The notes below the pieces were generated by a model. That model was not told where the DNA came from. It saw only the letters and a list, made by a program, of their open reading frames with translations, and did no database searches. From the IMG/VR virus record IMGVR_UViG_3300020204_000264, positions 1-29,630 of that record: 29,630 nt of DNA, one strand, 5' to 3'. A program made the position numbers and the translations under genes. Position 1 is the first letter of the stretch. Every line of letters starts with the position of its first letter. This stretch comes from a virus. Shown here piece after piece: positions 1 to 29,543 of the stretch.

Positions 1-1507
1 CTACTCGTACGGCATCAACGTTAAATGTTGCTGCGGCTTTAAAGTTTTGCGCTGCAGCAGATTGTACGTTTACACTATTGCCTGATAATATGTTAATAGG
101 ATCAGTGCTAGTCTCGATATTAATGCCTTTTGCTTTTAAGTTATAGACTCCTGCAACATCAACGTCCATTTTACCAGTAACGTGCATCTTAACGTCACCA
201 ATGACCTCAACATTTAATGCATTGTTGATCTTGACATTATGGTTACCATCTATGGTGACGTCAGCAGTGCCTTTAACATATAGGTGACCGTTTCGTTCAA
301 GCACCTCGTACTTGTCACCTACTATACGCTTGACTTCTGTACCGTTAGAGTCGATCTCTGTGTATGTACCAGACTTATGATAGATGTGTACGCGCTCTGA
401 GTTTGGTGTATCGTCAAACTCCATGACATGGCCAGACTCGGACATGAACACATGATTATACGGGTACAATGAGTTGTATGGTACGGGAGATTGGTCCCAT
501 GTCACGTTAAATGCAGAGATGACACCTTTCTCCCTCGCTAGTTCCTTCTTACGAACTATGGTCTTCTTGATGTCTTCATGTCTTGCAAGCTTATTGGTAT
601 CTGGTTCGTTTAAGTATAGCGGGTACTTACCTTTTGGATCTTTAAATCCGAGGACCATAGCTATACCGTCGTTAGTTAATCCCGAACTAGTAGTTGATGA
701 GTCGACTGGTGGAGTAGCGGAAGCTACTGGTGATAGTTCACCAGCAACATTTGGTATACCATCTTTTAAGAATAAGTCTTTCTGTGTAGTATCTGGATTT
801 AGACCATTGAATGCAGTGGCTGCATCTAAGTATTTTGCAGAATTAAGATCAACCATCATTGATGAATTAGTTACAGTTTCTGGTGTAGTATTATATGCAA
901 GAGCACATAATCCATCAAACATTGATTGACTGATAGGAGCTTTGACCGTGGATTGGATTGCTGGTGCTATATTTGTTGCTACATAGTCTTGTATCTCTGT
1001 ATCTGATAATGCTGGATCGTTTCTCTTGATCTCATCGATACCAGCTTGAGATAATGTATATGATGATGCTGGATTTAACCCAGTTAATTCTTCTATTTTA
1101 TCTTCAGGAGAATCATTACTTATTATGTTTCCATTTGAATCTGTGATTGATTGTTGATCGGCCGGCGCGATCATACCATCTTCTTTTAATATCATCTGAT
1201 CATTATCTTGATCTATTGCACCTTGTGCTTGTGGGATACCGCCGATAGAACCTAATATGATTGGTTGTTGTTCGTCATCATCTCTAAACATGATGAGGAC
1301 CCAGGTTCCTTCAACTGGACCTAATGGAGAGTGACCTATGCCTGATATACCAGCAGAAGTTATTGGCTGCATAGGATATGCCCATGGTAAGTCTTCAGTC
1401 TTTAGCTGGTTCTTATCATGGTTATGTAGACCAACGACTCTAACTTGACATCTACCAAGCTTGAGCGGGTCGTTCCTGTTCTCTACGCATCCAGTGTATA
1501 ACTTCAT
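1..1507 (-). CDS. 5: Baseplate central spike/hub protein, T4 gp5-like (C-terminus cut off)
   Basis: About 502 residues are visible; the C-terminus lies beyond the left edge. The first ~110 residues look like the gp5 OB-fold that sits on gp27 (MKLYTGCVENRNDPLKLGRC, then GVEGTW-type OB strands and LGSIGG). Around residues 150-240 there is a lysozyme-like (GH24) helical segment (LSQAGIDEIKRN, QSMFDGLCALAYN), but the lobe carrying the catalytic Glu, Asp and Thr of T4 gp5 is absent. After residue ~370 come short alternating repeats (VERNGHLYVKGTADVTIDG and following) typical of the gp5/VgrG triple beta-helix. The ATG overlaps the stop of the gp27-like gene (ATGA), indicating translational coupling and matching the known gp27-gp5 complex. 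Family assignment is strong. That the spike pierces the outer membrane without cutting peptidoglycan is inference. Confidence 0.88.
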   Translation of the reverse strand, partial: MKLYTGCVENRNDPLKLGRCQVRVVGLHNHDKNQLKTEDLPWAYPMQPITSAGISGIGHSPLGPVEGTWVLIMFRDDDEQQPIILGSIGGIPQAQGAIDQDNDQMILKEDGMIAPADQQSITDSNGNIISNDSPEDKIEELTGLNPASSYTLSQAGIDEIKRNDPALSDTEIQDYVATNIAPAIQSTVKAPISQSMFDGLCALAYNTTPETVTNSSMMVDLNSAKYLDAATAFNGLNPDTTQKDLFLKDGIPNVAGELSPVASATPPVDSSTTSSGLTNDGIAMVLGFKDPKGKYPLYLNEPDTNKLARHEDIKKTIVRKKELAREKGVISAFNVTWDQSPVPYNSLYPYNHVFMSESGHVMEFDDTPNSERVHIYHKSGTYTEIDSNGTEVKRIVGDKYEVLERNGHLYVKGTADVTIDGNHNVKINNALNVEVIGDVKMHVTGKMDVDVAGVYNLKAKGINIETSTDPINILSGNSVNVQSAAAQNFKAAATFNVDAVRV

Positions 1508-5005: not shown

Positions 5006-5590
5006 ATGGCTCAACAGATTAAAGACGTATTTGCTAACAATCAGTATAACTTAAAAGAAGCTGCTATCAAGTCTAAGGCATGGTTTCAACAACAAGCTTT
5101 GCTCCTTGGAAGACAGAACCTTACAGCTGCTAAAGTACTGAACTCTGATTCTGCAAGGGTTAAGAACACTATAGTTCCAGGATCGATGTATATGTTTATA
5201 TATGATCCTAAGGGTAAAGATGAACTGCCATACTATGATAAGTTCCCGTTAGTGTTACCTTTTAAGAAGGTTGCTGGTGGGTTTCTTGGCTTAAACTTAC
5301 ACTACTTACCTTATCAGCCTAGGATGATACTATTACAAAGGCTGATGGACTTTGTGTCTGACAGGAACATGAACGAAAACACTCGTATACGATATTCATG
5401 GAGCCTAATAAACGGAGTCAGTAAATTTAAATCAGCAGAACCATGTGTTAAGCATTATTTGATTGATCATGTTAAGACAACTTTTAGGAAGATAGATGCA
5501 AACGACTGGGCTACGGCGATCATGTTACCTGTAGAGCAGTTTGTTGGTGCAAATAAGAACAGGGTCTGGAAAGACTCAATGGGATACTAA
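5006..5590 (+). CDS. Conserved T4-like phage protein of unknown function, in the head/tail gene cluster
   Basis: 194 residues. The central region (DELPYYDKFPLVLPFKKV, GFLGLNLHYLPYQPRMILL) is a pattern I associate with conserved proteins of T4-like aquatic phages, but I cannot give a function. The first ~50 residues are Gln/Lys/Ala-rich and probably helical; the C-terminal half has RIRYSWSLINGV and a possible YLIDHVKTTFRKID helix. There is no signal peptide or membrane segment. It has its own late promoter directly upstream, and its stop overlaps the next ATG (TAATG), so it is likely a structural or assembly protein made late. DNA-end protection (gp2-like) and tail completion (gp3-like) were considered but are not supported by anything I can see. 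Confidence 0.6.
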   Translation: MAQQIKDVFANNQYNLKEAAIKSKAWFQQQALLLGRQNLTAAKVLNSDSARVKNTIVPGSMYMFIYDPKGKDELPYYDKFPLVLPFKKVAGGFLGLNLHYLPYQPRMILLQRLMDFVSDRNMNENTRIRYSWSLINGVSKFKSAEPCVKHYLIDHVKTTFRKIDANDWATAIMLPVEQFVGANKNRVWKDSMGY

Positions 5591-6282
5591 TGGCAACTTT
5601 AAACGAATTCATATCACAAGTAGCTGGCGAAGGGTTGATGCGAACATCTAGGTTCGCGGTATCTTTTGCTTTACCAAGCTCTCTATCTGCAGGACTATAT
5701 AGTGCAGATTTACGTAAGATACTATTATACTGTGATGCCATAAGCTTGCCTGGGTTAACATTAGAGACCACGGCAGCAAAGACTTTTGGCGAAGAGCGTC
5801 AGATGCCACACCAAAAACAATACGAGACCATAAACATGGGGTTCTATGTAGATAACTCGATGACAGTTAAAGAGCTGTTTGATAAGTGGATGAACGCTAT
5901 TCAAGACCCAGTAACTCGTAACTTTAATTACTATTGGACTTATGTGACAGACATAAACATTGATATATTTGATATAAAAGACAAGAGTCGTTATCAAGTA
6001 ACATTATATCATGCCTATCCAAAAGCTATAAACGCTATCCAAATGGACTATGCAAACAAAGACGTGATGAAGCTATCAGTAGCTATGGAGTACAAGTATT
6101 GGAGATCTTCACCAGCAACAAACACTACAGAATCATTCTTGAGTGATACTGTAGAGGTGCCAGACACATACTTTACCAACTTTGATCAGTATCAAACAGG
6201 ATATAATTCTTTTGAGAACTCTAGAAATTCATTATACTCTTCAGAAACAGCGTCTACAGGTCGCGGAACAATATTAACTTAA
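5590..6282 (+). CDS. 54: Tail-tube family protein, gp54/gp19-like (probably tube initiator gp54)
   Basis: 230 residues. The segments LLYCDAISLPG, QYETINMGFYVDN and VTLYHAYPKAINAIQMDY followed by KLSVAMEYKYWRSS form the tail-tube fold shared by T4 gp19, gp48 and gp54. In T4, gp54 is the initiator that sits on gp48 and starts gp19 polymerisation. The length (gp19 163, gp54 320) does not decide between them. The proximity to gp48 and baseplate genes favours gp54, while the simple single tube domain followed by a Ser/Thr/Asn-rich tail (~residues 180-230) leaves gp19 possible. The start codon overlaps the previous stop. Confidence 0.75.
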   Translation: MATLNEFISQVAGEGLMRTSRFAVSFALPSSLSAGLYSADLRKILLYCDAISLPGLTLETTAAKTFGEERQMPHQKQYETINMGFYVDNSMTVKELFDKWMNAIQDPVTRNFNYYWTYVTDINIDIFDIKDKSRYQVTLYHAYPKAINAIQMDYANKDVMKLSVAMEYKYWRSSPATNTTESFLSDTVEVPDTYFTNFDQYQTGYNSFENSRNSLYSSETASTGRGTILT

Positions 6283-6291
6283 GGACTTAAA

Positions 6292-6792
6292 ATGGAATAC
6301 AAAAAACAAGGTGTAAGCGATAATGCTTACCAACATTTACAAGAGGCGGATACAAACGGTGACGGCTATGTGAGTAGCCAAGAACTAGCTATGTATCTTG
6401 AGTTTAAGCGTAGAGAGCTTGAAGACCAAGATGCTCAACGTGATGCTATGCGTAAGATGACATGGTTTGCACTATGGGGTATGTTATTATATCCAGTGAC
6501 CATCGTTATCGCTTCATGGTTAGACGTAGACGATGCAGCAACTATCATTGGTAATATCGCTCCTACATACTTTGTAGCCATCTCAGCTTTGGTGGCAGCA
6601 TTCTTTGGTGCTAATGCATACTCAGCATCTAAAAAGAATGATGCACCACAACAGATGCAGATGCCAATCCCACAAAGACCAGCTCCATCAGCTCCACCAC
6701 CTCCTGCTCCACCAGCACCACCGAGTGTAGAGGATTATAGTGAGCCTGAAGTTAGTGCTGAACGTGCTACACCAAGAAGAAAGATAACTTAA
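6292..6792 (+). CDS. Membrane protein with one EF-hand calcium site and proline-rich tail
   Basis: 166 residues. Near residues 19-30, DTNGDGYVSSQE fits a canonical EF-hand loop with liganding residues at positions 1, 3, 5, 7, 9 and 12. Two hydrophobic segments follow (WFALWGMLLYPVTIVIASW at ~58-77, and APTYFVAISALVAAFFGAN at ~89-108), then a Pro/Ala-rich tail (PAPSAPPPPAPPAPPS). A Shine-Dalgarno AAGGA precedes the ATG. The gene lies between tail-tube and small-terminase genes, so it may be made with late morphogenesis proteins. I do not know a function. A calcium-sensing membrane protein or a lysis-timing protein is possible but speculative. One EF-hand alone is unusual, since they usually occur in pairs. 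Confidence 0.75.
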   Translation: MEYKKQGVSDNAYQHLQEADTNGDGYVSSQELAMYLEFKRRELEDQDAQRDAMRKMTWFALWGMLLYPVTIVIASWLDVDDAATIIGNIAPTYFVAISALVAAFFGANAYSASKKNDAPQQMQMPIPQRPAPSAPPPPAPPAPPSVEDYSEPEVSAERATPRRKIT

Positions 6793-7239: not shown

Positions 7240-7953
7240 ATGGCACTACCTATGATGAAGGCACCGTTATATAATGTAACGGTGCCATCTACAAAGAGAG
7301 AGATACAGTTTAGACCGTTTTTGGTCAAAGAAGAGAAAGCATTACTCTTAGCACAGCAGTCTGAAGACCCTAAGGTAATGATCAACACATTAAAGAACGT
7401 CTTACAGTCTTGCATAGTCGGAGACGTAGACATAGATAACTTAGCTACGTTTGACTATGAATACTTATTTACACAGATCAGAGCAAAGTCTGTAGGCGAG
7501 ATAGTAGAGTTAATATTCCTTTGTGATACATGCGATGACGAAAAGGCAAAGGCTAACGTTAAGTTAGATATAACAAAGTTTAAGGTAGAGTTTCCAGAAG
7601 GACATGACACTAACATCCCTTTATTTGATGATGTTGGGATCATGATGAAAAACCCGTCGCTAGATACTTTAGATAAGTTAGAGAAGATACGAGACGGAGA
7701 TATAGACAGTATATTTGATGTAGTAGTTGATTGTATAGAATCAATATACAACACTGATGAGGTGTTTAATACTAAAGATCAAACAAGACAAGAAGTATTA
7801 GACTTCCTTGAAAACTTAACTCAAGAACAGTTTAAGAAGATTGAAAACTTTTTCTTAACTGTACCTAAGTTAAAGCAGACAGTAGAATATGATTGCCCAG
7901 TATGTAGCAAGCATCATGTTAAGTCTATGGAGGGCCTGGCAAGTTTTTTTTAG
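7240..7953 (+). CDS. 26: Baseplate hub assembly protein, T4 gp26-like (0-frame product)
   Basis: 237 residues (T4 gp26 208). MKAPLYNVTVPSTKREIQFR and PFLVKEEKALLLAQQSED, then FDYEYLFTQIRAKSVGE, match the gp26/gp51-type T4 baseplate protein family, common in T4-like phages. A Cys-rich part (CDTCDDE near residue 97 and CPVC near residue 223) may bind zinc. AAGGAG precedes the ATG. The gene ends AGT TTT TTT TAG in a run of eight T residues, and the neighbouring gp51-like frame continues in the -1 register without a start codon of its own. The most likely outcome is two products, this one and a longer -1 frameshift fusion. The arrangement, ahead of a tape-measure gene, is the same as the G/GT tail-assembly chaperones of lambda-type phages. 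Confidence 0.85.
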   Translation: MALPMMKAPLYNVTVPSTKREIQFRPFLVKEEKALLLAQQSEDPKVMINTLKNVLQSCIVGDVDIDNLATFDYEYLFTQIRAKSVGEIVELIFLCDTCDDEKAKANVKLDITKFKVEFPEGHDTNIPLFDDVGIMMKNPSLDTLDKLEKIRDGDIDSIFDVVVDCIESIYNTDEVFNTKDQTRQEVLDFLENLTQEQFKKIENFFLTVPKLKQTVEYDCPVCSKHHVKSMEGLASFF

Positions 7954-8041
7954 TTAATCTCAGTCACGAGAGCTTGTCCAACTATTATAAGATGAACTTC
8001 GCTCTCATGCAATACCACAAGTATTCGTTGACTGAGATTGA
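7944..8041 (+). promoter_or_regulatory. Candidate -1 programmed frameshift signal (slippery T run plus stem)
   Basis: The heptamer T TTT TTT in the gp26 frame (7944-7950) sits directly before the stop TAG, and tRNA slippage by -1 re-pairs perfectly. Five bases downstream begins a perfect 11-base inverted repeat, AATCTCAGTCA (7956-7966) with TGACTGAGATT (8029-8039), extendable by a U-G and an A-U pair. Inside it is a second stem, GAGAGC (7968-7973) with GCTCTC (8001-8006). Slippery site, short spacer and downstream structure are the three parts of a -1 frameshift element. The efficiency is unknown. Confidence 0.75.
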
Positions 8042-8129
8042 AGAGATGTTCCCATTTGAACGCGAGATCTATGTTGCTATGTTGATTAAGTATTTAGAAG
8101 AAGAAAAACAAAGACTAGAGAGTAGGTAA
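7950..8129 (+). CDS. 51: gp51-like C-terminal extension of gp26, reached by -1 frameshift
   Basis: This frame encodes about 59 residues, LVNLSHESLSNYYKMNFALM followed by HKYSLTEIEEMFPFEREIYV and an acidic/Lys helix. It resembles the short gp51-type hub-assembly proteins of T4-like marine phages, which are much shorter than T4 gp51 (249). There is no ATG, GTG or TTG before the conserved LVNLSHESL, and the first ATG is 16 codons further in. Translation by -1 slippage at the T run gives a 296-residue gp26-gp51 protein. The stop overlaps the tape-measure ATG (TAATG). An independent internal start at the later ATG is possible but would remove conserved residues. Confidence 0.75.
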   Translation, partial: LVNLSHESLSNYYKMNFALMQYHKYSLTEIEEMFPFEREIYVAMLIKYLEEEKQRLESR

Positions 8130-10060
8130 TGGCAAAAAGCGGATTAATTTTTAAATCTGAAGCAGAGTTTCAGAAAGAGTATCAACCTGAAAGGATGGGC
8201 GAAGGAGCTCTTAAACAGGTTATCCAACAGTTACGTTCGCATAACCTATCAGCTGAAGGTGTCAAGACGAAAACGCTTGCTGCAGAACCGATTATCAAAG
8301 ACTCTAAAGAAACTAAACTTAAAGAAGATTCTAATAAAAATACAGAATACTTGATAGATGAAAATAAAAGATTAAATAAAAACATAGAAAAGTTAACAAA
8401 AACTATCAGTGATACTTCTAAAGGAAAAGGTATTACTGGAGAAAAAGCTGAAAAGTTAGCAAAAGAGCAAGAGAAGGACTATCGCGGGATAGGACAACAG
8501 TTTAAAGAAAGACTTACAGGTAGAGCTGGTAATAAGTTTGATCCAAGCGGCATGGCTTGGAAGTTTGGATCAATCAGAGGTTTATTACATACTACTGGGT
8601 TGGTTAAAGCTGGAGGTGGAAGCTGGTTAGATAAAAAGCTAGACGTACGAGAAGAGCGTTTGAGAACTGCTCATGAGATGACTAAAGCAAACTCTACTAT
8701 GAAAAACCTAAAGCAGTTTAAGACAGATGCTGCTGTAGAAGACTATTACGCTGAAAGAGGTAAAAAGGTACAAGAAGCTAAAGCTAACCTTCAAACAGAA
8801 CAATACAAGATAGACACAGCTCAAGGATTAATGTCAGAAGAAGAGTATGCTAGGACTACTGGTGGTCGAAAGAATATAGAAGCCCGAGATAAAGCCGCAC
8901 AAGCGCTAATTGATATTGATCCTACAAAACAAGGTGAGAAAAAGGGAGCAATTAAATCTGCTAAAGAAGATGTCTCACAAGATGAACTAAATGTATCGCA
9001 AGAAGAGAGTGATACATTAAAAGCATTAACAGCTTCTACAGAACCACTCAATGAACTGATAACCATCACTAAGATAGAGAATGAACGTAAGGCTAAAGCC
9101 GACTCTGACATGTTAGTTGCTTTAAACAACGTTGCTGCGTCGGCAGGTCAAGGCGGATCTTTAGGAGGACTAGCTAGTGTTGCAACCGATCTTATCGGCA
9201 GAAAAGGTGCTATTGGAGCTGCTAAAAAGGGAGCTGGATACCTATCAAAAGTAGGTGGTGCTGGTAAGCTCATGAAAGGTGTCGGCATAGGTGCAGTTGG
9301 AGCTGCAGTTGGTGAAGGTATGCAATGGGGTGGTGATAAGCTTAAAGAAGCAGGATACGAAAAGACTGGTAAAGCTGTAGGAACTGGTGGTACAGCAGTT
9401 AAGTATGCTGGTTATGGAGCTATGATCGGTTCTGTTATTCCTGGTGTTGGTACTGCTATCGGTGCGGGTATCGGTGGTGCTATAGGTTTAGGTAAAGGCA
9501 TCTATGATAACTATTACAAAGGTGCTCCAAAGGCTACATCAAATAAAGAAACACACAGCTTACGCATGGATACTAGTGATCCTAACAATATAAGATACCT
9601 CGTAGATGATAAAGAGATCAGTGCTGATGAATACATGAGGTTGCAAAACATTGAAGACTTACGCGATCAAGCTAAAGCCATAACTGCAGCATCAAATAAA
9701 GCTGATCAAGTTTCAGCACGATCTGCAGATAACGCTGAAGATGAAGGCGCAGTAACTGATACACAAGCTATGAAATCGAAGTATTATAAACCAGCAAGTA
9801 AATCTCAAATTTCAAAAGACATTGCAATAGATAAAGCTAAGATGCAGATTTATGCTGATCGTCAAAAAGCGGCGGAAGTTTCAGCACGATCAGCAGATAA
9901 CGCAACATCTAAGTTACCATCTAATGCAGCTCCATCAAATACTATCGTTAATGCTCCAACTAATATTAGTAAGTCATCAACAAATAATTCTATTAAAGTA
10001 CCTATAAGAGATCAAGACCATTCTGTTAGGTCTTACTATAACTCTAGGTATGCTACATAA
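8129..10060 (+). CDS. 29: Tail tape-measure/hub protein, T4 gp29-like
   Basis: 643 residues (T4 gp29 has 590). The first ~300 residues are charged and largely helical, with coiled-coil stretches (ENKRLNKNIEKLTKTISDTS and the KANLQTEQYKID region). Residues ~340-470 form a Gly/Ala-rich hydrophobic block (GVGIGAVGAAVGEGM, GAMIGSVIPGVGTAIGAGIG) that looks able to enter a membrane, as in many tape measures. The C-terminal quarter is polar and contains two copies of VSARSADNA. It directly follows the frameshifted gp26/gp51 pair, the standard place for a tape measure, and its ATG overlaps the gp51 stop. Direct sequence similarity to T4 gp29 is not obvious by eye, so the call rests mainly on composition, length and context. 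Confidence 0.7.
   Translation: MAKSGLIFKSEAEFQKEYQPERMGEGALKQVIQQLRSHNLSAEGVKTKTLAAEPIIKDSKETKLKEDSNKNTEYLIDENKRLNKNIEKLTKTISDTSKGKGITGEKAEKLAKEQEKDYRGIGQQFKERLTGRAGNKFDPSGMAWKFGSIRGLLHTTGLVKAGGGSWLDKKLDVREERLRTAHEMTKANSTMKNLKQFKTDAAVEDYYAERGKKVQEAKANLQTEQYKIDTAQGLMSEEEYARTTGGRKNIEARDKAAQALIDIDPTKQGEKKGAIKSAKEDVSQDELNVSQEESDTLKALTASTEPLNELITITKIENERKAKADSDMLVALNNVAASAGQGGSLGGLASVATDLIGRKGAIGAAKKGAGYLSKVGGAGKLMKGVGIGAVGAAVGEGMQWGGDKLKEAGYEKTGKAVGTGGTAVKYAGYGAMIGSVIPGVGTAIGAGIGGAIGLGKGIYDNYYKGAPKATSNKETHSLRMDTSDPNNIRYLVDDKEISADEYMRLQNIEDLRDQAKAITAASNKADQVSARSADNAEDEGAVTDTQAMKSKYYKPASKSQISKDIAIDKAKMQIYADRQKAAEVSARSADNATSKLPSNAAPSNTIVNAPTNISKSSTNNSIKVPIRDQDHSVRSYYNSRYAT
9710..9903 (+). repeat. 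Pair of 26-base direct repeats in the tape-measure gene
   Basis: The repeats are at 9710-9735 and 9878-9903 and differ by one base. They encode VSARSADNA twice, about 56 codons apart, in the C-terminal region. They look like a small internal duplication or a repeated binding motif. Confidence 0.85.
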
Positions 10061-21788: not shown

Positions 21789-22505
21789 TTAGTAATTTTC
21801 AGCTAAGAATTCAGCTTCGGGGATGCGTGTATGAGTGTTCTGGGAGCCTAAAACCACGACTGATCTCTGGCCCTTATCTGTGGACATAAGCATCGCCAGG
21901 CAGCCTCCGGCAGGCCTTGTATAGCCTGTCTTGGAGATCAGTATGTCCTGACGTTTACCTATGAGAGGGTTAGTGTTCTTAAAGACCCAGAAACGCTTCT
22001 TGGTCTTAATCTTGATCTTTGCCTGTTGAGATGCGTTGACTAATTCTGGATATTTTGCAGCTTCCTGGACTAACTGTGTTAGCTCCATGGCTGTGGATTT
22101 GTTACGTCTATCAAGACCAGTAGCATCATAGACGATGGTGTTGAGTAGGTTAAGCTTAAATAACAAGTGATTCATGTCAGCTATACACCTGTCATATCCA
22201 CCTACATATAACTGACATAATAAGTCTGCAGTTTGGTTATTTGACTTTACTATGGCCATGTCTATCAGCTGATGGCGTGTTATCATACCAAAAGCTTTAG
22301 TCTTGACTGGAGCTTCTATGTTCTCTCCGCTGTTTAATATGGTCATCGCTGTGACTAGTTTTGTGATAGATGCTATTGACCTGACTTCTGCAATATTTTG
22401 CCCCGCGATCACCTTTCCATCTTCATCTGTCACCACCCATGAGTTAGCAGTTATGTCTTGAGCATAGCAGTTGAATGCTAATAAAAGTAAAATTAAGAAC
22501 TTCAT
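21789..22505 (-). CDS. Exported D,D-endopeptidase/carboxypeptidase, PBP7-like (S11 family)
   Basis: 238 residues from the ATG at 22505, which overlaps the cyclase stop (TAATG); an upstream in-frame start at 22538 would lack the signal peptide at its N-terminus. Residues 1-15 are a signal peptide (MKFLILLLLAFNCYA). All three penicillin-binding motifs are intact: S46-I-T-K49, S88-N-N90 and K192-T-G194. The protein is shorter than E. coli PBP7 (PbpG, ~310) and has no C-terminal anchor, so it should be a soluble periplasmic enzyme that trims or cuts peptide cross-links. Presence in a phage, in one operon with an adenylate cyclase, is unusual. Roles could be lysis support, wall loosening for export of fibres, or changed wall stiffness. 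Confidence 0.9.
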   Translation of the reverse strand: MKFLILLLLAFNCYAQDITANSWVVTDEDGKVIAGQNIAEVRSIASITKLVTAMTILNSGENIEAPVKTKAFGMITRHQLIDMAIVKSNNQTADLLCQLYVGGYDRCIADMNHLLFKLNLLNTIVYDATGLDRRNKSTAMELTQLVQEAAKYPELVNASQQAKIKIKTKKRFWVFKNTNPLIGKRQDILISKTGYTRPAGGCLAMLMSTDKGQRSVVVLGSQNTHTRIPEAEFLAENY

Positions 22506-24514
22506 TACTTGCTTGTGGCTCGATATACACCGTCCCACTCAGCAGGGAGACCTTCGTCCATTCGTTCTATCATCTTGTGATAGTAGTCTTTGATAGTAAC
22601 GTTATTATCATCGATGAGTTCTTGTGCCCATTCTGTAGCACGTTTCCAATTACCGCGATAGTATTCTTTTAGATACTCTTCATGTTTATGTTTAATAGTC
22701 TCGCCTATCGTGTATACCTTAACTCCTTCGGTCTTGCCCTTAACAGCGATCGTATCCATCTCTACGACTGAATAAACTTCTTTAGCATACTCTGCGGTCT
22801 TTGTACCTAATACGATACGTACACCATAGTTCTTTGATTGTCCTTCTAAACGGGAAGCAAGATTGACCGCATCACCAAGACAAGTGTAATCAAAACGCTG
22901 GCTGCTACCCATATTCCCAACAACCACGTCGCCGCTGTTAATACCAAGTCCCATACCGAACGCTGGTATATTTTCTTTAGCGATCTCTTCATTGAATTTA
23001 TCCAAATCATTTAACATCTCCAATCCAGTCTTAACTGCATTTAATGCATGATCCTTATCATCTAAAGGAGCATTCCAAAAAGCCATCTGAGCATCACCTA
23101 TATACTTATCAAGTGTACCATTATTTTCAATGATCTTTGCTGTCATGGCTGTCATGTATCTGTTCATGATCTTAGTCAGACCTTGAACGTCTTTACCATA
23201 ATGTTCTGAGATAGTCGTGAAGCCACGAACGTCTGTAAACATGATTGATAATTCTCTAGTCTCACCACCAAGCTTCAATAGCTCTGGGTTCTTTTGTAAC
23301 TTTTCAACCATTGCTGGCGATAAGTATGTACCAAATTGTTTCTTGATCTGTAGCTTTTGGTTTAATTCAGAAATGAACTTAACGGTGTATGCATGACCAT
23401 AGACAACAGACAAGCTAATAATAGGATAAATGCCGTCCAACAGAATACCTTGATGGGCGAACACGTAGCGAGAAGCGTAATATATAGAACCAATAATACT
23501 AATGATAGGAAGAATAGCATATTTCCACCTCGTTAAAAAGATTATGATGATTGATAATACAACTATAGCAAGCATCTCAGCACCATCTGCCCAATCAGGA
23601 CGAGATATGTTGGCGCCAGATGTTAGTGTATCTAAAACTGAAGCTTGTACATAATGAGGATAGACGGCTCCTCGTGGGGTTGCAACGGGATTGTTAAGTC
23701 CGCGTGCCGATAACCCAACGATGACGATACCTCCATCGAATGACTTGGGTAATCCCACAAGACTGTGTTCAATCGGCGTGGAACTCCAATCGACCCATAT
23801 TCTACCCATTGGGTCTGTGACGACCTTGGCGAAGCTAGGTATTCTGACAGCTTCAATCCCGTTTGCGTTTGACTTGACTTGGAAACTTGGGTCTCCAACT
23901 GCAACACGCATTGTTTCAAGACTGATACTTGGGTACAATTGGCCATCACTTGCGACGACCATAGGGATACGACGAACAACACCATCAATTTCAGGTAATA
24001 CATTTACGACTCCTATTCCAGCAGCTTTGCTGTTAAATGATGATATATTGGCTTGAATGCCCGGATAGTTTACTGCATGATCAGAAGCTTTGCCTCCGAT
24101 TTCTGATACTCCCGGTCTAAATGCACCAGGTTTTTGTTTGTCTGATGTTGCGACTTGTGGTAATACTACAGGATGCCTAGTAAGGGTATCAGCCAGTCCA
24201 GCATCTTTTCCAAACCTATCACTATCAGGCATAAACAGATTAAAGACAACAAGACCAGCCCCACGGCTGTAAAGATCTTCGATGATATTTGCATATTGGG
24301 TCCTTGGAAATGGAAATTGCCCAAGGTGTTCTATAGACTTATCATCTATGTTTACGACATGGACTTGTTTTGATTGTACTACAGGTTTACTTGTGATCAG
24401 CGTGTCAAAGTATCTAAGACGAACTGACTCTACAAATGATGGATCTGATACTCTAATGCCTACTAAAACTAATAGGGTGACTAGTGCAAACCATGGGCTA
24501 AGTAATTTTTTCAT
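22505..24514 (-). CDS. Membrane adenylate cyclase with CHASE2 sensor domain (class III)
   Basis: 669 residues. One N-terminal membrane helix (~8-21), an extracytoplasmic CHASE2 domain (~30-310: VRLRYFDTLI, FPFPRTQYANIIEDLYSRGA, ISSFNSKAAGIGVVN), three membrane helices (~313-382) and a class III cyclase domain (~415-605). The catalytic set is complete: metal ligands D428 and D474, substrate residues K470 and D548, transition-state residues N551 and R555; Lys/Asp predicts ATP use and cAMP as product. A helical tail follows. The ATG lies five bases after AATAAATA, so expression late in infection is expected. In bacteria CHASE2 cyclases often sit near FecR genes, and a FecR gene is present about 4 kb away here. 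Confidence 0.95.
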   Translation of the reverse strand: MKKLLSPWFALVTLLVLVGIRVSDPSFVESVRLRYFDTLITSKPVVQSKQVHVVNIDDKSIEHLGQFPFPRTQYANIIEDLYSRGAGLVVFNLFMPDSDRFGKDAGLADTLTRHPVVLPQVATSDKQKPGAFRPGVSEIGGKASDHAVNYPGIQANISSFNSKAAGIGVVNVLPEIDGVVRRIPMVVASDGQLYPSISLETMRVAVGDPSFQVKSNANGIEAVRIPSFAKVVTDPMGRIWVDWSSTPIEHSLVGLPKSFDGGIVIVGLSARGLNNPVATPRGAVYPHYVQASVLDTLTSGANISRPDWADGAEMLAIVVLSIIIIFLTRWKYAILPIISIIGSIYYASRYVFAHQGILLDGIYPIISLSVVYGHAYTVKFISELNQKLQIKKQFGTYLSPAMVEKLQKNPELLKLGGETRELSIMFTDVRGFTTISEHYGKDVQGLTKIMNRYMTAMTAKIIENNGTLDKYIGDAQMAFWNAPLDDKDHALNAVKTGLEMLNDLDKFNEEIAKENIPAFGMGLGINSGDVVVGNMGSSQRFDYTCLGDAVNLASRLEGQSKNYGVRIVLGTKTAEYAKEVYSVVEMDTIAVKGKTEGVKVYTIGETIKHKHEEYLKEYYRGNWKRATEWAQELIDDNNVTIKDYYHKMIERMDEGLPAEWDGVYRATSK

Positions 24515-24519
24515 ATGTT

Positions 24520-24527
24520 TATTTATT
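24520..24527 (-). promoter_or_regulatory. T4-type late promoter of the cyclase, leaderless configuration
   Basis: AATAAATA on the minus strand, overlapping the stop of the upstream gene, then exactly five bases and the ATG at 24514. Same spacing as the plus-strand sites before gp4 and the 5006 gene. Confidence 0.7.
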
Positions 24528-25158
24528 CGTATGTTACTGTATCGCTATCACCTAGTCTCCATTTAGGATTAGTCTCTACCACATACTTCTTGGTGCAGAC
24601 TTTAAAATCAGGGAATAACATCTCTTTTGGATTACTTGCTGCATCAAAGAATATACACCTGTTATTCGGCTGAGCAGCATACTGTCCATTGTTTAGTTGT
24701 ATAAAGTTAAAACTCTTATGATCTTCTGGAACTTCACTGTAACTCGTATCTAGTATGTTTAAGTCTGGAGCTGAATTATCTACCGTAAACATATAGTCAC
24801 CATGATGAAACTGTTTATCTTTAGCATACACCTTACAGCTTAAGTTCCTTAAGAATGCTTTTTGTATGACTGCTATGTCATAACTAAAACAATCCCATAT
24901 CTGTAAAGTGTCTAGTGATAAGAACTTTTCAGGTTCTAGATCAGTCGTTCTACTTACATAAGCATGCAACGGCAACTTATCATATAAAGCTCCGTATCTT
25001 GGGAAGTATGACTCTATCCTAAATGCTTGACTACGAAGGCTCTTGATACTAACCCATATACATGACTCATATTCGCCATGACCAGATTTAAAATCATATA
25101 AGAACTCCTTACGAACATAGCAATGTACTGGAGGCAAGTTAGCTACAAGGAAACTCAT
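24523..25158 (-). CDS. Conserved T4-like phage protein of unknown function
   Basis: 211 residues. MSFLVANLPPVHCYVRKEFL, HGEYESCIWVSIKSLRSQAF, YFPRYGALYDKLPLHAYVSR, LQIWDCFSYDIAVIQKAF and FNFIQLNNGQYAAQPNNRC form a strongly conserved pattern that I know from cyanophage-type T4-like viruses, without function. No signal peptide. It has its own promoter with the ATG six bases after the -10. It is a core phage gene set between cargo genes, which indicates that the surrounding envelope genes were inserted around, or carried with, the phage backbone. Confidence 0.8.
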   Translation of the reverse strand: MSFLVANLPPVHCYVRKEFLYDFKSGHGEYESCIWVSIKSLRSQAFRIESYFPRYGALYDKLPLHAYVSRTTDLEPEKFLSLDTLQIWDCFSYDIAVIQKAFLRNLSCKVYAKDKQFHHGDYMFTVDNSAPDLNILDTSYSEVPEDHKSFNFIQLNNGQYAAQPNNRCIFFDAASNPKEMLFPDFKVCTKKYVVETNPKWRLGDSDTVTYE

Positions 25159-25164
25159 ATTGAC

Positions 25165-25193
25165 ATTATACTCCTATAGTTAATTAAAGTAAA
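25165..25193 (-). promoter_or_regulatory. Promoter of the 211-aa gene, leaderless configuration
   Basis: -35 TTTACT (25188-25193), 17-base spacer beginning TTAATTA, -10 TATAAT (25165-25170), six bases (GTCAAT) and the ATG at 25158. Nearly identical in layout to the promoter at 19854-19882. Confidence 0.8.
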
Positions 25194-25194
25194 A

Positions 25195-26187
25195 TTATTT
25201 AACAGCTTTGATAAATATATCAAAACAATTTTTCCAAGTCCATGTTTTAATAGATAATTCTTGTACTTTAACGTTATCTAATGACTTACATTTTTCTATA
25301 GCAGACTGTAACCCATTGCCATACATGCTTAGATATCCTGTAACACCATATTCAATGATATCTTGTGGACCAGTTACCCTATATGCTGCTACAGGTAATC
25401 CATTACATAAAGCTTCTATGATAACTATACCAAAAGTATCAGTTAGACTTGGGAAAACAAATATGTCGTTCTCTACATATATTTGCTTTAATTCATCTCC
25501 AAATTTATAACCAGTAAAGTTAACCTTTCTGTATTTGCGGATCAGCTGAGGTAAAATAGGCCCGTCTCCGACTACAGTGATATCATACATATTTTGTAAA
25601 TTACATAAGTCTTCTAAGTTCTTTTCTTTGCTTACCCGACCTACATACAAAATCTTTGGAGGCATATTCTTTGTTTTGTCTTTACGCTTTTCTATGAGAT
25701 CTTTTGATACGCCTCTAGTCCATATAACTAGATTTACAAACCCCTTAGATTGCAATTCTATGCTCATCGATTCACTCGGTACTAACACAGCTTTTGAATA
25801 CTTGTGAAACCATTTAAGATACCTATATGTGATAGATGTAGGTATCCATAATAATTTTTTTAAGAATTCTGGAAACTTAGTATGATACGCTGTAGTGTAT
25901 GGTATCTTGTTTGCGTCACAGTAGAACTTTGCAAATAGTCCTAGCGGTCCCTCTGTCGCGATGTGAATACGATCCGCACCCATCTTCTTAATCTTACTGA
26001 TAAAGAACGAAGGAAGGGAAAGTTTGACCTCAGGATAAAAAGGACAGCTAATATGACGGAACTTCCCGGGATCAAGATAAACAATACTATGACCAGCAGA
26101 AACAGCATGATCCTCAATATTTTTGTATGTAGTGACAACGCCATTGACTTGATCTCTTAAATTGTCTGTTACTATTAATATCTTCAT
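25195..26187 (-). CDS. agt: GT4-family glycosyltransferase, Agt-like (glycolipid synthesis)
   Basis: 330 residues. N-terminal Rossmann part with VTDNLRDQVNGVVTTYKNIE, the acceptor-side IHIATEGPLGLFAKFYCDAN and IPYTTAYHTKFPEFL; C-terminal nucleotide-sugar half with ILYVGRVSKEKNLEDL and FPSLTDTFGIVIIEALCNGL (E-x7-E region). This is the pattern of GT4 enzymes that add a sugar to diacylglycerol, such as Agt and SqdX-type proteins. Its ATG overlaps the stop of the PlcP-like gene (ATGA). The pair PlcP then Agt is known from phosphate-stressed bacteria: PlcP cuts phospholipid to diacylglycerol, and Agt glycosylates it. The exact sugar and acceptor cannot be read; a role in LPS or capsule sugar transfer remains possible. 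Confidence 0.8.
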   Translation of the reverse strand: MKILIVTDNLRDQVNGVVTTYKNIEDHAVSAGHSIVYLDPGKFRHISCPFYPEVKLSLPSFFISKIKKMGADRIHIATEGPLGLFAKFYCDANKIPYTTAYHTKFPEFLKKLLWIPTSITYRYLKWFHKYSKAVLVPSESMSIELQSKGFVNLVIWTRGVSKDLIEKRKDKTKNMPPKILYVGRVSKEKNLEDLCNLQNMYDITVVGDGPILPQLIRKYRKVNFTGYKFGDELKQIYVENDIFVFPSLTDTFGIVIIEALCNGLPVAAYRVTGPQDIIEYGVTGYLSMYGNGLQSAIEKCKSLDNVKVQELSIKTWTWKNCFDIFIKAVK

Positions 26188-26927
26188 ATGATCTCATTCC
26201 AATAAATTATTTCCCATTTACCATCTTCATGTTCTACAAGAGCTGAGCATGATTCTACCCAGTCACCATCATTCATGTAGATTATTCCATTGATTGTCTT
26301 AATCTGTGGAGTATGGATATGGCCGCAAATAACTCCATCAAAGTTTTTTCGTTCACAGTATCCTGCAAGGTTTTCTTCGAATTTGAATACAAAATCTATC
26401 GCTTTCTTTACTTGATGTTTAAGAAACTTACTTAATGACCAATAACCAAACCCTAACCTATGTCTTATGTAGTTAAATTTAGTATTGATCCATAATACAC
26501 AATCATAAGCTGTATCGCCAAGAAACCCAATCCATTTACCAACTCTTGTAATACCATCAAACATGTCACCATGTGTTACTAAGAATAGGTTTCCATCAGT
26601 GTCTCTATACTCTGCTTGGTTACATATAGTAATAGAACCTAAAGCAAACTGATTGACGAATGGTCTAAGGAACTCATCATGGTTGCCAGTCACATATGTA
26701 ACCTTAGTTCCACGTTTAGCATAACCTAGTATCCTACGGATAACATTAGTATGGCTTTGCTTCCATTTCCATTTGTTCTGCTGTATCTTCCATCCATCTA
26801 TGATGTCTCCTACTAAGAACAGATTATCACATTCATGGTGTTTAAGGAAATTATTAAGTAGATCAGCCTTAGCATCCTTAGAACCAAGATGAGTGTCAGA
26901 GATGCAAATAGTCTTATACTTTTTCAT
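26184..26927 (-). CDS. plcP: Calcineurin-like phosphoesterase, PlcP-like phospholipase C (LpxH relatives)
   Basis: 247 residues. All metal motifs are present: D11-x-H13, G40-D41, G81-N-H-D84, H119 in THGD and G202-H-I-H205. The sequence ISDTHLGSKDAKADLL, LVGDIIDGWKIQQNKW, YDCVLWINTKFNYIRHRLGF and YMNDGDWVESCSALVEH is nearer to the PlcP group (bacterial phospholipase C of phosphate-dependent lipid remodelling) than to E. coli LpxH. It is expected to act at the inner face of the inner membrane. A late promoter GATAAATA lies four bases before the ATG. Together with the Agt-like gene it forms a two-gene lipid-renovation set. Database labels such as UDP-2,3-diacylglucosamine pyrophosphatase are the main alternative. 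Confidence 0.85.
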   Translation of the reverse strand: MKKYKTICISDTHLGSKDAKADLLNNFLKHHECDNLFLVGDIIDGWKIQQNKWKWKQSHTNVIRRILGYAKRGTKVTYVTGNHDEFLRPFVNQFALGSITICNQAEYRDTDGNLFLVTHGDMFDGITRVGKWIGFLGDTAYDCVLWINTKFNYIRHRLGFGYWSLSKFLKHQVKKAIDFVFKFEENLAGYCERKNFDGVICGHIHTPQIKTINGIIYMNDGDWVESCSALVEHEDGKWEIIYWNEII

Positions 26928-26931
26928 TTGT

Positions 26932-26939
26932 TATTTATC
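26932..26939 (-). promoter_or_regulatory. T4-type late promoter of plcP-agt
   Basis: GATAAATA on the minus strand, overlapping the stop of the curlin-like gene, then four bases (ACAA) and the ATG at 26927. No Shine-Dalgarno sequence and no pho-box-like repeat is visible. Confidence 0.68.
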
Positions 26940-28462
26940 TATGGTTGTGTGATGCTTGTTGAGCAACCTGCAGCAGTAACACAACTTTGTTGGATACTGT
27001 AAACTTGATTAGTTGATCCTGACTGATTAAGGTTTAATGTAGCTGCTCCACCAGAATTTGTTAAGTCTATGGTTGCCGCATGGTTACCTGAACCAGACTG
27101 AAGTATGGTCGTGTTATGACCAGGACCAGTTAGTTTAAGGTCTAAGTAGTGTTGACCAGAATCTTGCTGAGTAGTCGACACAGTGTTATTATTACCAGTT
27201 ACGCTTTGAAATAAAGTCTTGCTACCAGATCCAGTTTGTAAGTTTAATATACTGTTATTGCTTCCAGCCACAGTCGAATGATTAAAATGACCAGATCCTG
27301 AAGTCGTCCCATCCACTTGTCTTGTAGTGATATTGTTTGAGCTACCGTTTAGGTTAAAGTATAAGTAATGATTATTACTATCAGCCAAAGGCGTAGTGCC
27401 ATCAGAGTTCTTTCCTTGTTTCAAGTTAAAAGTATTATTATCTCCCGTAGAATATAGTTCTATCCTAGCTTTACCCGTAACTGTAGCTCCTTGACTAATA
27501 TCAAAGGTGTTGTTATTTCCAGACTGTTCAACGTATATCTCGTTACCATGTTGTCCTTGTCTGATAGTATTTGCATTGTTCTTTGTAGTCGTTTGTGCTG
27601 GTGTTATTCCAGAACTGTAAGATGGGCCTGGAGCTGGAGGAGGTGGAGCAGAGCTACCAGCATTTGGTGTTACTGGTGTAAACGTTTGTCCATTGAGTGT
27701 AGTAGTTCCTTGCATGACGTCTATGAATAAGATAGGACTCAATGCAGTGTCACCTAAGTTAAACGATGCAAAGCCTAAAGTATAACTACCATTTTCTGGA
27801 ACAGTAAACTGAGCTACTTGCCATCCTGTAGCTCCATAACTGCCTGTAGCATAGTTACCGGTTCCAGGATTTGTAAAACCTAACAATGCATATCTTTGTG
27901 CAAGGTTGTTTAGTGTTGGCATGATATTAGCATTACTAGTGTGTGTTAGTGTCATGATACTACCGTCATTATATGGTGTGTAGTCTGTACTCAAGTATTG
28001 CCAAGCAATCGTGTATGTTACACCAGTTTGTAACGTAAAAGTTTTTTTCATCCAGCTAGAATTAGTTGGAGTAGGGTTTCCACCTCCACCGTTTTGTGAT
28101 TGATATGTCAGGTATTGTTTAATAGCAGTATTTTCAGTGCCAGTCAACCCTAAGCTGCTGATAGCACTATCAAAAGTAACAGTGTTTGAAGATCCAGCTT
28201 GTATACTAGCCATATAAGATCCATATGGGTTTATGTTCCACGTCTTACCTCCACCTGGACTATAGTTTGTAACTCCTGTGGTAAGAGCTACACCCACTCC
28301 TGTAGAACTCCATGTACTCTTCGTAGCGGCTAATGTTCCAGAAACTGTCCACCCGTCTATGCTATTATTTTCAAAGCCTATACCTAAAGTTTCAGCTTTT
28401 GCACCTAAGCAAAATAACAATAGACTAATTTTGAGTAGCGTTAATAACCGTGTTACCACCAT
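26939..28462 (-). CDS. Exported beta-sandwich protein with C-terminal curlin-type repeats
   Basis: 507 residues. Residues ~1-23 are a signal peptide (TLLKISLLLFCLGAKA). Residues ~24-265 look like a beta-sandwich of the carbohydrate-binding or PEP-CTERM type (IGFENNSIDGWTVSGT, GWQVAQFTVPENGSYTLGF, LSPILFIDVMQG). A Pro-rich linker (SAPPPPAPGPS) leads to ~210 residues of curlin-like repeats with regular Asn/Gln/Gly (NEIYVEQSGNNNTFDISQG, NTTILQSGSGNHAATIDL, LNLNQSGSTNQVYSIQQ). The last 15 residues hold two Cys. The ATG lies inside the last codons of fecR (38-base overlap). It could form amyloid-like fibres or an adhesin on the infected cell, or be part of the virion. No CsgG-type exporter is visible in this window. 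Confidence 0.82.
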   Translation of the reverse strand: MVVTRLLTLLKISLLLFCLGAKAETLGIGFENNSIDGWTVSGTLAATKSTWSSTGVGVALTTGVTNYSPGGGKTWNINPYGSYMASIQAGSSNTVTFDSAISSLGLTGTENTAIKQYLTYQSQNGGGGNPTPTNSSWMKKTFTLQTGVTYTIAWQYLSTDYTPYNDGSIMTLTHTSNANIMPTLNNLAQRYALLGFTNPGTGNYATGSYGATGWQVAQFTVPENGSYTLGFASFNLGDTALSPILFIDVMQGTTTLNGQTFTPVTPNAGSSAPPPPAPGPSYSSGITPAQTTTKNNANTIRQGQHGNEIYVEQSGNNNTFDISQGATVTGKARIELYSTGDNNTFNLKQGKNSDGTTPLADSNNHYLYFNLNGSSNNITTRQVDGTTSGSGHFNHSTVAGSNNSILNLQTGSGSKTLFQSVTGNNNTVSTTQQDSGQHYLDLKLTGPGHNTTILQSGSGNHAATIDLTNSGGAATLNLNQSGSTNQVYSIQQSCVTAAGCSTSITQP

Positions 28463-29543
28463 TGTTAATCCTATTCTTGATCTCTACTGGTCCTTGAGTT
28501 TGTGTTATGGTTGTATTTTGATTTTTTGGAGTCGTGATGCATTGTACATCTCCGTTACCTTCACGACATAATGTGACTTGTAGATCATCGACTTCAACTA
28601 ATACACCAGAAGTTGGTATATAATCTGGTAATAATCCAGACTTAGTCTTACCTAATAGATCTAATTGAGCTGCTAATTGTGCATTGATGATGTCTAGTAT
28701 GTTTGCTAATAAATCATTATCTAAGAAGTTTCGATCTAGCTTGCTCTTATATGTCTCAGCTGCCTGTTTTTCTAACACGTTTATGAGTTTGTTCTCCGCT
28801 AAGAAGTCTACATCTAGTGCACCTTTTACTTCAGATCTCTTCTTAGATTTATCTTCATCAGACTCTCTAAGCTCTTTTGGTGGACTTAATATGAGTATGT
28901 TACTTATTTGAGTTTCATCTAAGTTTAAAGTAACTGGTTTAAACGGCTTACTATCTCTGTTATCAACCCTCGTGGCTTGAAACGGTTGATCTAATACAAC
29001 TTTGCCTTCGTCTGTAAGTACTTCGATTTTACCAGTCTTACAATCAAGTATGACGTCTTTATAATCTTTAGGACAACTTGGTAATAAGATTATGGTGCTC
29101 CTACCTAACTCGTCTACTGTAGCAGTAAAGTCTGTACCTCTGACTGCGATAGTAGCGCTTGGTGTATTGATCTTAACGTTGTCTGGGTTATTATGTGCGA
29201 CTGCACCTGATGCATAACGTACTGTGCCTAAAGCGACCTTCATTGCAAGCTTACCACCCTTCTTGCTATTAGGGTCATACACAAAGTCATCGATGACTAG
29301 CTTACTGTTTTCACTTACTTGTACTCTTGTGTCGTCAGCAAAAGTTATACCTGTTTTGCCTTGAGCCGTCTTGACGACGTCGTTCATCTCTACACCTATA
29401 CCTTTATTTCCGGTAAGACTAGAGCCTTTACGTTGGATGTTTGCGGGGGTGTTTTGAAGTTCAGTTATACTACCCACGGCCGCAAGTGTTAGTTGCGGCC
29501 AGAGCAATATGATACATATTAATTTCCAGTAGTAATGTTCCAT
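28425..29543 (-). CDS. Exported FecR-domain protein with curlin-like C-terminal end
   Basis: 372 residues. Signal peptide ~1-21 (MEHYYWKLICIILLWPQLTLA). The FecR domain (~30-165) is visible in VVKTAQGKTGITFADDTRVQ, VSENSKLVIDDFVYDP, LAMKVALGTVRYASG and NTPSATIAVRGTDFTA. It has no N-terminal cytoplasmic part or membrane anchor like E. coli FecR, so it is probably periplasmic or exported. A charged helical region follows (~235-310), and the last 30 residues (NTTITQTQGPVEIKNRINNG) resemble a curlin repeat. It overlaps the upstream curlin-like gene by 25 bases and the downstream one by 38, so all three are made together. FecR domains of this sort are often found with CHASE2 cyclases; that link is from family knowledge. 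Confidence 0.85.
   Translation of the reverse strand: MEHYYWKLICIILLWPQLTLAAVGSITELQNTPANIQRKGSSLTGNKGIGVEMNDVVKTAQGKTGITFADDTRVQVSENSKLVIDDFVYDPNSKKGGKLAMKVALGTVRYASGAVAHNNPDNVKINTPSATIAVRGTDFTATVDELGRSTIILLPSCPKDYKDVILDCKTGKIEVLTDEGKVVLDQPFQATRVDNRDSKPFKPVTLNLDETQISNILILSPPKELRESDEDKSKKRSEVKGALDVDFLAENKLINVLEKQAAETYKSKLDRNFLDNDLLANILDIINAQLAAQLDLLGKTKSGLLPDYIPTSGVLVEVDDLQVTLCREGNGDVQCITTPKNQNTTITQTQGPVEIKNRINNGGNTVINATQN

Follow-up and report, generated by a model that had tools for sequence, protein, structure and literature searches.

The window, a 29,630-nt stretch of viral DNA (IMG/VR record IMGVR_UViG_3300020204_000264, positions 1 to 29,630), carries a T4-like gp26 gene immediately followed by an open -1 frame that encodes a gp51-like sequence (Table 1). 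Read by codon, the 3' end of gp26 is GCA AGT TTT TTT TAG. The run of eight T (7944-7951) is the only one in the window, both strands checked, and its eighth T is the first base of the stop codon. A reading of the sequence alone had picked out a T TTT TTT slippery site at the end of gp26, followed at once by TAG, and a gp51-like frame in -1 register with no start codon ahead of its conserved residues. Both points hold: the heptamer has the X XXY YYZ form in the zero frame, no stop interrupts the -1 frame between 7923 and 8126, and its earliest candidate starts (TTG 7974, ATG 7992) fall within the conserved block. The junction reads FF-LVNLSHES, and the predicted gp26-gp51 fusion would be 296 aa long, as against 237 aa for gp26 itself; its junction-spanning tryptic peptide would be SMEGLASFFLVNLSHESLSNYYK. 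This fragment of the virus genome contains no separate full-length gp51 gene of the T-even layout.

Table 1. Features at and around the gp26-gp51 junction.
Feature	Position	Strand	Basis and remarks
gp26 / TAC-N, 237 aa	7240..7953	+	normal product; TAG stop 7951-7953; phrog_150 E 7e-66, Pfam T4_baseplate E 5e-61
Shine-Dalgarno-like GGAGGG	7929..7934	+	9 nt 5' of heptamer; conserved, under synonymous selection
Slippery heptamer T TTT TTT	7944..7950	+	in-frame T TTT TT[T/C/G] in 137/137 loci; lost in T-even controls
Predicted -1 frame extension, gp51 / C domain of TAC-NC, 59 aa	7950..8129	+	stop 8127-8129; phrog_634 E 6e-25
5' stem arm	7956..7966	+	11/11 pairs with 8029-8039; compensatory changes
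3' stem arm	8029..8039	+	pairs with 7956-7966; compensatory changes
Candidate tape measure protein, 643 aa	8129..10060	+	position and glycine-rich hydrophobic segments; no homology match

Upstream, the tail tube gene (5590-6282, phrog_45) is separated from gp26 by two genes. The tail tube gene and the small terminase gene flank 6292-6792 (+), whose small product has hydrophobic helices and a loop resembling an EF-hand, DTNGDGYVSSQEL; no PHROG match was found for it. Downstream, the ATG of the next open reading frame overlaps the gp51 stop (TAATG, 8127-8131), so that its translation may be coupled in part to ribosomes shifted into the -1 frame. The sequence-only reading took its product for a gp29-like partner of the gp26 proteins. 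Position and composition suggest a tape measure protein; homology to a known one was not found, the product having no phage match in this search, no alignment to the tape measure of HTVC008M, and just 9 viral relatives. Elsewhere in the window, 2-1507 (-) encodes a gp5-like baseplate hub protein whose residues 178-241 weakly match the endolysin family phrog_10457 and may occupy the position of the lysozyme domain in T4. At 21789-29543 (-) this T4-like contig carries a run of genes of bacterial type, which encode a CHASE2 adenylate cyclase, an S11 D-Ala-D-Ala carboxypeptidase, a FecR-domain protein, a QSGNNNT-repeat (curlin-like) protein, a group-1 glycosyltransferase and a metallophosphoesterase.

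Conservation of the heptamer and of the elements flanking it

Homologous junctions were collected through gp26 (40 viral loci) and gp51 (80 viral loci) searches and from isolate genomes, giving 137 loci that have both parts; these overlap to some extent and amount to about 105 unique sequences, the window among them. At every one of the 137, gp51 lies in the -1 frame and the in-frame slippery motif is found 0-6 nt before the gp26 stop. Many of the sequences compared are kin and the counts are not counts of independent events, so the weight of the comparison should be sought in the range of families and codons rather than in raw numbers. The set covers Kyanoviridae, the Straboviridae member nt-1, and phages of Rhizobium, Sinorhizobium, Ochrobactrum and Desulfovibrio, with PX29 and YB07 as two further cases of gp51 in -1 with a heptamer. 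Ackermannviridae (May, Det7) and Vibrio phage K382 (L058, L059, L063) have a -1 gp51-like extension that lacks a canonical heptamer, and were left out of the supporting count.

Codon choice at the site is uniform. In all 108 unique loci the codon preceding Phe-Phe has T as its third base, across five amino acids (S, D, N, A, G), and the first Phe codon is TTT, compared with 63% TTT in the rest of gp26. In T-even-type controls with a separate gp51 (n=3), Phe-Phe is kept but is spelled TTC TTT, after a GAG or GAA codon: by their sequences, these phages appear to have retained the dipeptide while the slippery site is gone. Several cyanophage records (L044, L056, S-CAM1/ACG-2014d) leave the gp51 part unannotated or begin it at arbitrary internal codons, consistent with the lack of a real gp51 start.

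The sequence-only reading overlooked a GGAGGG element upstream of the heptamer. Its distance falls within the 6-17 nt spacing treated as stimulatory for -1 frameshifting (PMC4066793). In 96 of the 105 unique loci a Shine-Dalgarno-like motif ends 8-10 nt 5' of the heptamer, and in 88 it is GAGG, GGAGG or AGGGG. The Glu codon of the underlying Glu-Gly pair is GAG in 82 cases and GAA in 9, against 549/1483 in the remainder of gp26 (Fisher p 6e-35). Pairing to the 16S rRNA end has its sole peak at this site, and the best pairing energy over the seven codons upstream of the heptamer averages -8.3, compared with -5.4 for synonymous redraws.

Downstream, the 11-base perfect inverted repeat proposed from the sequence is exact, and closes over 62 nt. 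RNA 7944-8045 folds at -29.4 kcal/mol, as against -16.6 +/- 3.1 for dinucleotide shuffles (z -4.2, 0/200) and -10.4 +/- 2.9 for synonymous redraws that hold the -1-frame protein and use the phage's own codon usage, of which 0/2000 reach the observed value. The stem begins 4-10 nt downstream of the heptamer in the window (from 7956, first C-G pair 7959) and in about half of close relatives. Over 80 distinct sequences, the 11 stem pairs are standard in 76.9% of cells, compared with 70.1% in shuffles and 28-43% when the arms are slid; both sides have changed in 67 cells (32.8 in shuffles); and at least 10 pairs form in 36/80 relatives, against a permutation maximum of 20. In one compensatory example, AGT/ACT is replaced by TGC/GCA, altering both amino acids and preserving the pairs. 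The remaining relatives, notably the CCTTTGTCATGA group, lack the stem, and a universal stem was rejected, RNAalifold returning 0 pairs over 81 loci; some cyanophages (L039, L046, L064) have local hairpins. Across loci the region 3' of the heptamer is nonetheless more structured than control windows (mean z -1.8, 43% below -2, versus 4-20% in controls), even with the stem absent in about half, and the downstream stimulator thus seems exchangeable between lineages. A 6-base stem nested within the repeat (7968-7973/8001-8006), also proposed beforehand, does exist, but it is one among several near-equal inner folds and has no individual support. Searching Rfam matched no known RNA family. No intrinsic terminator was found at the T run; the upstream hairpin is unstable.

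Relation to T4 gp26 and gp51

The -1 part matches phrog_634 (gp51) and also the C-terminal end of phrog_150. Coverage of phrog_150 extends over 13-280 for T4 gp51 and over 14-235 only for T4 gp26; the two T4 proteins, whose genes are encoded divergently, are themselves weakly similar (E 2e-6), and residues 204-249 of T4 gp51 match the -1 part of the window. Taken together, the coverage, the weak similarity and the match at the end indicate that T4 encodes the long form in a single gene, as gp51, and the short form as gp26. The fused product of the window would, on these alignments, share the long layout of T4 gp51.

An AlphaFold2 model of gp26 (pLDDT 89) has as its best PDB matches HK97 gp13 (2ob9), 3fgx and YqbN (3klu), over residues 1-94 and with Z 7.0-7.6; the next, unrelated structure scores Z 4.3. 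The N-terminal part of the model thus resembles the TAC fold with moderate strength (Foldseek E 1.2; Z under 8). No solved structure sequence-related to T4 gp51 was found, and an NCBIfam search gave nothing useful. In a published listing (PMC3004832), T4 gp26 and gp51 both figure as chaperones of hub assembly, gp51 being essential and absent from the particle.

Probable frameshifting and its alternatives

Sequence, conservation, synonymous selection, stem, homology and fold are the observations in hand. They make it very probable that 7929-8039 is a signal for programmed -1 frameshifting, laid out like those of dnaX and IS911, from which both TAC-N (237 aa) and TAC-NC (296 aa) are predicted to be produced. 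The majority of ribosomes would terminate at TAG 7951 to yield gp26. In a minority, pairing between GGAGGG and 16S rRNA, together with the downstream stem, would cause a pause; both Phe-tRNAs would re-pair on T TTT TTT, shifted back by one base, and translation would continue in the -1 frame to give the gp26-gp51 fusion. If the case is analogous to lambda gpG/gpGT, the tape measure protein would be coated by many copies of TAC-N and few of TAC-NC, the latter recruiting tail tube subunits through its C domain. The lambda tail chaperone mechanism (PMC5009743) serves here as a model, and its transfer to gp26/gp51, like the slippage itself, its efficiency, the product ratio and the chaperone partners, is something we infer.

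Most database annotations imply a stop-restart instead: ribosomes that have terminated on gp26 would start again close by, in the -1 frame, and so translate gp51 as a short protein apart from gp26. Some relatives do have an ATG overlapping the stop or just past it (TAATG), and the 29 of 105 unique loci with an ATG within -6 to +30 could make a little free gp51 in this way; but 76 have no such ATG and 39 have no ATG, GTG or TTG near the junction, whereas all have the heptamer. Moreover, the Shine-Dalgarno-like element is fixed relative to the heptamer, at a spacing that does not suit the scattered possible gp51 starts and is too distant from them, and T4 gp51 appears to be the long, fused form. 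We consider stop-restart a very improbable source of the gp51 part.

Less probable still is slippage of RNA polymerase, gaining or losing a T at the eight-T run to create mRNAs that join the two frames. Eight T approaches the length known to allow such slippage, which is a possible reason why E. coli genes avoid UUUUUUU (PMC4066793). However, about a quarter of the unique loci (27/108) have six T followed by C or G with the -1 relation unchanged, which makes the explanation unlikely, and the fixed Shine-Dalgarno-like element and downstream stem are stimulators of ribosomes. That gp26 and gp51 are one continuous frame split by a sequencing or assembly error, homopolymers being error-prone, can be dismissed as next to impossible: the 137 loci, from independent samples, agree with one another and with the finished genomes of isolates P-SSM2, Syn1, nt-1 and HTVC008M, six-T versions included, and the identical run of eight T recurs in three loci (L001-L003) from other metagenomes.

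Programmed frameshifting, in the manner of the G/GT chaperones, is well supported in its core by the conserved junctions, the T-even controls, the Shine-Dalgarno-like element and the fold. The sequence-only reading knew of no description of the scheme for this gene pair; T4-like gp26/gp51 tail chaperones with poly-T sites were reported in 2022, to judge from the papers that cite that work (PMC12846349, PMC10885494), and the window adds a fuller signal. No report of the conserved internal Shine-Dalgarno element or of the covarying, lineage-limited stem was found in the literature searched. We think it rather probable that chaperone genes of non-T-even T4-like phages carry a conserved recoding signal (internal Shine-Dalgarno element, T TTT TTY, exchangeable downstream structures), and that an ancestor which frameshifted in this way gave rise, through duplication and fusion in frame, to the separate T-even genes 26 and 51.

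If so, the 'truncated' gp51 seen in marine phages does not correspond to an independent gene. Frameshifting at the junction also means that, among deposited records of cyanophages, vibriophages and rhizophages, several hundred probably annotate a C-terminal fragment as an independent gene or leave it out. A 2010 comparison (PMC3037559) gave cyanophage gp51 only about 20% of the length of its T4 counterpart; -1 frameshifting, absent from that account, offers an explanation. The direction of change between frameshift site and split T-even genes also becomes directly testable.

Comparison with known systems

According to the citing papers, Vladimirov, Gautam and Davidson (2022, Virology 566:9-15) identified gp26 and gp51 of T4-like phages as tail assembly chaperones; PMC12846349 cites the work for poly-T slippery sites within the TAC-N genes of T4-like phages, and PMC10885494 cites it for T4-like phages in which two genes, one short and one long, take the place of frameshifting. 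The protein families described there are those of the window, with a short gp26 and a long form bearing the gp51 C domain. In T-even phages the two genes stand apart, are transcribed divergently and lack a heptamer, whereas the window has one gene with a -1 site. An earlier account (PMC5009743, 2016) set T4 apart as an exception to the conserved G-T frameshift. In Vandenendeviridae and Andersonviridae (PMC12846349) a poly-T -1 extension of TAC-N precedes the tape measure gene and the C part is annotated separately, an arrangement like that of the window with its predicted extension and candidate tape measure; there the family is different, the motif is GTTTTT, and the section concerned describes no Shine-Dalgarno element or stem.

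The likeness to lambda gpG/gpGT, with counterparts in P2 and HK97, lies in a short chaperone accompanied by a rarer -1 fusion, as predicted here, ahead of a large tape-measure-like open reading frame, and in the moderate resemblance of the modelled gp26 N-domain to HK97 gp13. The lambda heptamer is G GGA AAG, not T TTT TTT; sequence similarity to gpG/gpGT is undetectable; and the window adds the internal Shine-Dalgarno element and the stem to a larger TAC-N. With E. coli dnaX and IS911 the window shares all three parts of the signal, a Shine-Dalgarno-like element 6-17 nt upstream, a heptamer, and a stem 4-10 nt downstream. It differs from them in having a T-rich heptamer in place of A AAA AAG, in lying in a phage morphogenesis gene, and in closing a lineage-specific stem over 62 nt. 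The lambda-type scheme of two chaperones would in this way extend to a T4-like lineage that is uncultured and whose signal has all three parts.
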